Below are positions 2,371-2,815 of a stretch of 16,089 nucleotides of DNA, one piece after another. The notes below the pieces were generated by a model. It was not told where the DNA came from and searched no databases. It worked only from the letters and a program-made list of their open reading frames with translations. The DNA is from Byssothecium circinans. Its lineage: Eukaryota; Ascomycota; Dothideomycetes; Pleosporales; Massarinaceae. The stretch covers positions 816,702-832,790 of the forward strand of contig ML976980.1 in assembly GCA_010015675.1 (NCBI GenBank), read 5' to 3'. The position numbers and the translations under genes are program-made. Positions within the stretch are counted from its first letter, which is position 1; each line of letters opens with the position of its first letter.

Positions 2371-2815
2371 CCGTTTTGCGCAAAGCCAGGGAGCAGCGCA
2401 AAGACCATGGCAAAGCCAGGGAGCAGCTGTAGAGGGCGGCCGATAGGTTTTAGTAACCTTCAGCCAATCTCACAACCTTATAGTGCAAAGCCAGGGAGCA
2501 GCACTGCTAGAGAGCAACCAATACGCAAAGCCAGGGAGCAGCGTACGTGTGCAAAGCCAGGGAGCAGCACACAACCATAGCACGGCTAGGGAGCAGCTAT
2601 GGGAGAGCGGCCAATAGTCTTAGTGACCTTTAGCTAATCTCAAAACCATGCCAGGGAGCAACTAACCTACTTTGTGCAAGGCCAGGGAGCAGCACAAAAC
2701 CACGGCACGGCCAGGGAGCAGCTGTGGAAGGTGGCTGATCGTTTTGGTAACTTTCAACCACCTGAAAAACCATTCAAGAACTACATGAACTAGCACTCAC
2801 GGCTAGGGAGCATCA
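2371..2815 (+). repeat. Leader hairpin array with invariant loop and covarying stems
   Basis: The motif GCCAGGGAGCAGC or a near variant occurs about ten times. In seven copies a 14-nt loop (AAAGCCAGGGAGCA, AAGGCCAGGGAGCA or ACGGCYAGGGAGCA) is closed by a stem of different sequence: TTTGCGC/GCGCAAA (2375-2402), AGTGC/GCACT (2482-2505), TACGC/GCGTA (2522-2545), GTGTGC/GCACAC (2547-2572), CCATAGC/GCTATGG (2575-2602), TTTGTGC/GCACAAA (2671-2698) and CCACGGC/GCTGTGG with one G.T pair (2700-2727). The two inner pairs are always GC/GC; the outer pairs vary but stay complementary. A weaker stem lies around 2405-2432; copies at 2650 and 2802 look degraded. The position between PBS and gag is where retroelements commonly carry packaging and dimerisation signals, but the role here is unknown. 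Confidence 0.85.
2431..2771 (+). repeat. Three diverged 45-bp spacer repeats within the hairpin array
   Basis: Segments 2431-2477, 2603-2647 and 2728-2771 align: each starts GAGGGCGGCC-like, continues GAT(A)..TTTTAGT(A)ACCTTCA and ends near AAAACC. Each directly follows a hairpin of the CCAYRGC class, so the array is modular: one hairpin class plus spacer, with other hairpins inserted between. Differences are mostly transitions. Window base 1 in copy B begins inside the same spacer type. Confidence 0.7.

Follow-up and report, generated by a model that had tools for sequence, protein, structure and literature searches.

Retroviral packaging signals (psi) are made of one or a few different hairpins. 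Plant LTR retrotransposons have hypervariable tandem repeats in their untranslated regions, which lie near the 3' end and are satellite-like. Packaging of MMTV RNA requires a single-stranded purine stretch, GGAG...AG, to which Gag binds (PMC8096270). The knuckles of HIV-1 NC bind both G residues of a GGAG tetraloop, and replacement of this tetraloop had no significant effect on packaging (PMC7599994). The in vitro assembly of the HBV core is directed by several stem-loops whose loops read RGAG (PMC8677749). A minimal Ty1 retrotransposon retains 380 nt from the 5' end, and nt 429-4979 of Ty3 are dispensable (PMC4974528). According to the same 2016 review, packaging sequences and Gag-binding sites of Ty elements were not precisely defined (PMC4974528). 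By what means an LTR retrotransposon selects its own RNA is thus an open question, on which the repeated candidate recognition loop described here bears.

The window, i.e. the whole stretch of 16,089 nucleotides that was analysed (C4:816702-832790 of the Byssothecium circinans genome, 48.4 Mb in 109 contigs), contains an LTR retrotransposon at 1742-13658. The 5' LTR (1742-1963, plus strand, 222 bp) recurs as a direct repeat, 92% identical over 218 nt, in the 3' LTR at 13437-13658 (222 bp). A 4-bp target duplication, ATGT, flanks both LTRs when the LTR start is taken two bases before the aligned edge. The primer-binding site (PBS; 1966-1985, plus strand) is complementary to the 3' end of tRNA-Gln; its match in the genome is a tRNA-Gln(TTG) gene with an intron (ARAGORN), one base being different. 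Two LTRs with a short target duplication and a PBS complementary to a host tRNA are what is expected of a Ty3/gypsy-type element. The gag ATG is at 2828, and the gag and pol frames are both interrupted by stops. Gag carries a CCHC zinc knuckle of the form CX2CX4HX4C (CFGCGGTNHAVKDC, 3890-3931, plus strand), as had been noticed from the sequence; against Pfam zf-CCHC it reached E 0.42 only, under the cut-off. A protease piece (PF13975, E 3e-7) and an RNase H-like piece (PF17919, E 3.5e-7) scored above the cut-off. The reverse transcriptase (RT) piece and an integrase piece (8345-8704) had no relevant Pfam match. The RT piece has 38 relatives; 21 of these carry PF00078, and one is named from Pyrenophora teres. 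This last match, the intron in the tRNA gene and the C-to-T type decay of the copies agree with a fungal host.

Between PBS and gag, at 2375-2727, eight inverted repeats follow each other which have a near-identical loop and differing but matching stems. The original prediction had placed a hairpin array here, and its location between PBS and gag holds; the number is eight rather than the seven claimed. All are on the plus strand: H1 (2375-2402, stem TTTGCGC/GCGCAAA, loop 2382-2395), H2 (2405-2432, CCATGGC/GCTGTAG with one A.C mismatch, loop 2412-2425), H3 (2481-2506, TAGTGC/GCACTG, loop 2487-2500), H4 (2522-2545, TACGC/GCGTA, loop 2527-2540), H5 (2547-2572, GTGTGC/GCACAC, loop 2553-2566), H6 (2575-2602, CCATAGC/GCTATGG, loop 2582-2595), H7 (2671-2698, TTTGTGC/GCACAAA, loop 2678-2691) and H8 (2700-2727, CCACGGC/GCTGTGG, loop 2707-2720). 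The 14-base loop had been considered as shared throughout. Actually, its core GCYAGGGAGCA is constant, whereas one C/T place and the first three bases vary, the latter being AAA, ACG or AAG within the window. With at most one mismatch the window contains the core 16 times (13 on the plus strand, 3 on the minus strand in the inverted copy) compared to 0.57 expected in shuffles; all 13 plus strand matches (0 or 1 mismatch) are within 2137-2812.

How does this compare to the known systems? As in the retroviral psi of MMTV and HIV-1, the location is between PBS and gag, GGAG purines are present (here predicted to be exposed) and Gag has a CCHC knuckle. Unlike psi, the array presents a single loop eight times over (other copies have 4-14 stems); the stems are unrelated, and each loop is a candidate Gag site. 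As in HBV, a short loop motif recurs on many stem-loops with different stems, eight of them in the window. The HBV sites are dispersed across the genome (PMC7612645, PMC8677749), whereas here they are clustered at 2137-2812 in a noncoding leader. The section of PMC4974528 on the packaging of Ty RNA describes no hairpin array. The unit spacings are 30, 75, 40, 26, 29, 65, 31, 29 and 92, and the array also contains recurring larger units of about 125 nt. A coding repeat was ruled out because all three frames of the array contain stops, in the window as well as in the diverged copy C4:938; further, 7 of the 9 spacings are not multiples of three. Covariance models of Rfam 15 gave no match over 1700-2900 up to E 1. 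The claim that no described retroelement leader is built in this way held in searches of open-licence papers, which showed none of comparable build.

Covariation was assessed by dealing out the 3' arms anew among the hairpins and counting the paired cells. Stem positions 3-6 of the eight window hairpins comprise 32 cells, 30 of which were paired, whereas permuted arms averaged 14.8. Only 4 of the 40,320 possible arm arrangements, the real one included, paired as well. This confirmed that different yet complementary stems surround a common loop. When all ten GGGAG sites of the window array were used, 33 of 40 cells were paired and none of 300,000 random permutations was as good. In C4:938, 23 of 32 cells were paired, and 588 of 40,320 arrangements were as good. 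Stem positions 1 and 2 are always C-G and G-C in the window. There are four pair types at position 3, five at position 4 and two at position 5; position 6 has four standard pair types plus two mismatched cells. Over 26 leader zones of the genome the pairing score was 527, compared to at most 329 in 2000 permutations (166 sites, after removal of one of the 167 GGGAG sites which contained Ns); because the copies are related and not independent, the weight of this result is smaller than the numbers imply. Predicted folding energies agreed, with an average of -7.2 kcal/mol for hairpins with their own arms vs. -4.6 kcal/mol with swapped arms (162 and 1280 cases from 21 copies). The array thus offers an example in which paralogous hairpins covary within one molecule.

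The 26 leader zones were drawn from the 51 and 29 matches of DNA searches. Within them are 261 loop-like sites (two mismatches at most), and 167 of these have a GGGAG core. At 123 of the 167 GGGAG sites five or more of six stem positions pair. The number of stems (sites with at least five pairs) was determined in 21 leaders, leaving aside those with Ns (C2, C24), those cut (the inverted copy in C4, and C47) and an interrupted one (C26:441). It ranged from 4 (C9:907) to 14 (C9:1144), some counts being lowered by decay. In most copies decay is by C-to-T type changes, which may be due to RIP. The RIP indices of LTR and leader were mixed (TpA/ApT 1.17, the other 1.35), and only one points to RIP. 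Because of this decay the present stems of most copies are no gauge of selection. The motif GCNNNGCYAGGGAGCAGC, with at most one mismatch, had 134 matches in the genome vs. 10 for the reversed control pattern; among the 100 matches listed, 95 are in these leaders and 5 elsewhere. In viral contigs the motif had no match; eight stretches fitted a pattern for RT relatives there and none was confirmed.

Loops without complementary flanks had been named in the original prediction as an observation which would speak against selection on structure. They exist, as a minority. The loop-like classes 2137, 2233, 2354, 2506 and 2650 (22, 10, 11, 15 and 19 occurrences, respectively) each have at least one stem position which never pairs, and thus no continuous stem in the register used. 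A few of their sites still score 5 of 6, and finding sites with mismatches allowed is biased against stems. In the window classes 2137, 2233, 2354 and 2506 carry GAGAG or GAAAG, not GGGAG. Only class 2650 (site P5, 2650-2660, plus strand) is stemless with GGGAG, in 19 of 19 occurrences among the leaders. Because four of the five stemless classes have GAGAG or GAAAG, the stem accompanies GGGAG except in a single class; most GGGAG sites pair.

The folding energy of the whole 445-nt array was ordinary (z -1.1 vs. shuffles); thus, an unusual global stability was not found. The minus strand folds lower than the plus strand. The predicted fold of the window (span limit 60) contains H3 to H8 as described, but other pairings take the place of H1 and H2. 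Both of these are present in the predicted fold of the C9:1144 copy. In the local-folding ensemble AGGGAG is unpaired with a probability of 0.68-0.83 at eight of the ten window sites, the average over all bases being 0.45; the remaining two sites have 0.37 (H2) and 0.45. A second type of hairpin, type B, is predicted as a longer inverted repeat placed between pairs of the type A hairpins described above: B1 at 2432-2472 and B2 at 2602-2642, both with a TTAGT loop, and B3 at 2726-2766 with a TTGGT loop (all plus strand). Type B has 60 sites in 25 zones, of which 57 were tested. Their own arms paired at 656 of 1026 cells compared to an average of 645.5 and a maximum of 657 for permuted arms, i.e. 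1 of 2000 permutations was as good. The effect is rare by chance yet tiny, in a test with a fixed register which misfits some bulges. Own arms gained little in folding energy (-12.0 vs. -11.1 kcal/mol for swapped ones). We keep the type B hairpins as weak predictions.

What might the array do? The deletion derivatives of the element provide a clue. 23 other copies were mapped against the window, C5:1098 and the inverted partial copy being omitted. Ten have a large internal deletion and have lost much of the coding interior, 11 show no deletion as far as about 4.2-4.4 kb, one contains an interrupting insertion and in one the match ends at 3159. A deletion junction 3079|8643 is common to C9:1144 and C2:256, and within a few bases to C15:315 and C37:239 (in the diverged C37 within two). 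Other junctions are 3147|9151 (C36), 3150|4237 (C108), 3225|9207 (C9:1156), 3310|4455 together with 5037|9166 (C24 and C47) and 4986|8924 (C26:229). The six distinct 5' junctions (at about 3079, 3147, 3150, 3225, 3310 and 4986) are all at least 250 nt past the gag ATG. Among the ten derivatives no visible deletion extends into the leader or into the initial 250 nt of gag. The gag start (2828-3078, plus strand) is kept in nine of them, with 5' junctions at 3078 or later; the tenth, C24, reads N over the gag start and its sequence resumes at 3145. In C2 part of the array reads N. Seven of the ten arrays are legible throughout, with 5-14 stems; the other three are broken by Ns or a contig end. 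The C9:1144 derivative (L015) has an enlarged array of 14 stems with repeated blocks of type A and type B hairpins.

Five deleted copies in which both ends are present have exact 4-bp target duplications, all different (ACAA, CTAG, TTAT, GTTG and CTAT). C9:1144 and C2:256, which share the 3079|8643 junction, are flanked by TTAT and CTAT, respectively. A shared junction at sites with different duplications indicates that these copies transposed once the deletion had occurred, with proteins supplied from another source. Thus, such derivatives probably moved in trans, and the array was kept wherever it is legible. This is similar to Ty1 and Ty3, where the 5' end is needed in cis and the interior is dispensable if proteins are provided in trans (PMC4974528), and to psi, which is kept in derivatives together with the gag start.

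By analogy with retroviral psi, the array may be a reiterated Gag-binding packaging signal, a reading to which we give an even chance. With covarying stems and a predicted structure between PBS and gag it has the location and build of such a signal. We favour this reading because retroviral Gags read purine-rich G motifs and RGAG hairpins guide HBV assembly, and the presumed movement in trans of derivatives which keep the leader lends it further support. The original prediction had suggested packaging or dimerisation. Of these packaging gained from the derivatives, whereas dimerisation lost because the loop can pair with itself over no more than two bases in a row. In a packaging signal the predicted stems would merely display the loop, and their letters would be free to change as long as pairing is kept. 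Each hairpin would present the same G-rich loop to the Gag zinc knuckle, Gag being the presumed reader, and several sites together could raise the selectivity for the element's own RNA. The derivatives would keep the leader since Gag from intact copies picks it up. Least certain is a final step in which Gag binding at the last loop might switch the RNA from translation to packaging. An elaborate version is conceivable, yet we consider it rather unlikely: Gag would count the sites, more units would mean stronger capture, derivatives would be parasites, one with an enlarged array (14 vs. 8), and the last unit would clamp the gag start codon such that Gag lowers its own translation as packaging begins. 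If the array is a packaging signal, the natural series of unit numbers and derivatives would render RNA choice testable by dose-response.

Several points stand against packaging. The derivatives could retain the leader by descent or because it adjoins the PBS, and with six distinct 5' junctions the deletions could have missed the leader by chance. The array is no more stable than shuffles and its minus strand folds lower, H1 and H2 are missing from the predicted fold of the window, AGGGAG of H2 has a low probability of being open and class 2650 is stemless. Further, HIV-1 packaging did not suffer significantly when the GGAG tetraloop was replaced (PMC7599994). Lastly, the Gag knuckle scores under the Pfam cut-off. 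In our ranking a packaging signal is followed by translation control and this by RNA export; DNA action, neutral repeats and dimerisation come last.

Translation control, which we regard as doubtful, would mean that the structured leader, rich in upstream ATGs, stops scanning and that ribosomes get to gag by entering internally, by shunting or when an ATG hairpin is released, perhaps via a host protein which reads the loop. Upstream ATGs indeed number 13 in the window leader and 7 in that of C4:938. Further, the tenth GGGAG loop (2802-2812) is located inside a larger predicted hairpin, H9 (2778-2835, plus strand), whose stem ACATGAAC (2783-2790)/GTTTATGT (2824-2831) covers the gag ATG. When 24 related copies were folded separately, the gag start bases, which read ATA in some of them, were fully paired in 19, partly paired in 3 and unpaired in 2 predicted RNA folds. 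Possibly, the gag ATG is clamped in a hairpin with a GGGAG loop. In the diverged C4:938 lineage, however, the pairing is absent from the same separate fold and appears only in the longer, span-limited fold of the whole array. Also, arrays of 5-14 stems persist in derivatives unable to make a complete Gag; this argues against a role in translation because gag translation would not require them there. A two-codon upstream frame, ATG AAC TAG (2785-2793), begins in the arm predicted to pair with the gag ATG.

Improbable, and more so than translation control, is a signal for nuclear export or localisation of the RNA that is read by a host RNA-binding protein. The layout of the array may be comparable to that of retroviral constitutive transport elements. 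In favour, hairpins of the CCAGGG form share a recurring compound module in which a 3x1 internal loop is predicted to be followed by 2 bp and a loop of six bases, and any role of the RNA in cis would agree with the retention in derivatives. Against export, just 5 of the 100 listed motif matches are outside the leaders, compared to 10 matches of the reversed control in all.

Does the structure operate in RNA or in DNA? Inverted repeats are equal on both strands and the minus strand folds more stably, so cruciforms or hairpins of single-stranded cDNA have to be considered. The stem cells of the eight classes, in all copies, comprised 808 Watson-Crick, 100 G.U, 49 A.C and 6 other pairs. In the ten less decayed copies there were 17 G.U and 13 A.C cells outside CpA/TpG contexts, and 18 G.U and 12 A.C within contexts explainable by CpA-to-TpA changes. 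All 13 A.C cells outside such contexts are at the outer stem end (H4 position 6 and H5 position 7), whereas G.U is inside. G.U inside stems and A.C at ends only favour plus strand RNA over DNA. As only four kinds of position in ten copies contribute, this sequence pattern is suggestive of an array which acts as plus strand RNA and a weak argument against DNA; overall we deem action in DNA very unlikely.

With hardly any better prospects one may regard the array as a neutral tandem repeat which spread by duplication and inherited its pairing. Unit number varies, as it does in plant LTR retrotransposons, and the larger units of the array recur. The plant repeats, unlike the array here, are not known to contain constant-loop hairpins with compensatory stems. 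Its stems differ by two-sided changes, transversions included, and this speaks against neutrality because neutral divergence would break the stems. Least likely of all is dimerisation of the genomic RNA by kissing loops: the array shares its place between PBS and gag with retroviral dimer signals, yet besides the poor self-pairing of the loop the plus strand of the element contains no 9-base and only one 8-base loop complement.

Some further features of these elements were observed. It was considered that C4:938 might have a different body (40% identity in gag). This was dropped since other sequence interrupts this copy shortly after the gag start. The interrupting sequence contains a 303-aa ORF antisense to the element (L019, 384-1295) which presumably is related to hAT transposases. 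In the window a long region 3' of pol, 10100-13260, has remnants of reading frames, three stop-bounded pieces of which had no Pfam match. A junction near 10094|13107, common to four of the mapped deletion derivatives, takes out this region. At 18-677 is a partial copy of LTR and leader, head to head with the main element; its 660 nt are 96% complementary to 1738-2397. Short direct repeats, CACTATCAAACCGC and CACCATCGAACCGCG, are near both window ends (890-930 and 16035-16089). The second one is adjoined by a 94-aa ORF on the minus strand (15793-16077), which we assume to be a piece of a pogo/Fot1-like transposase.
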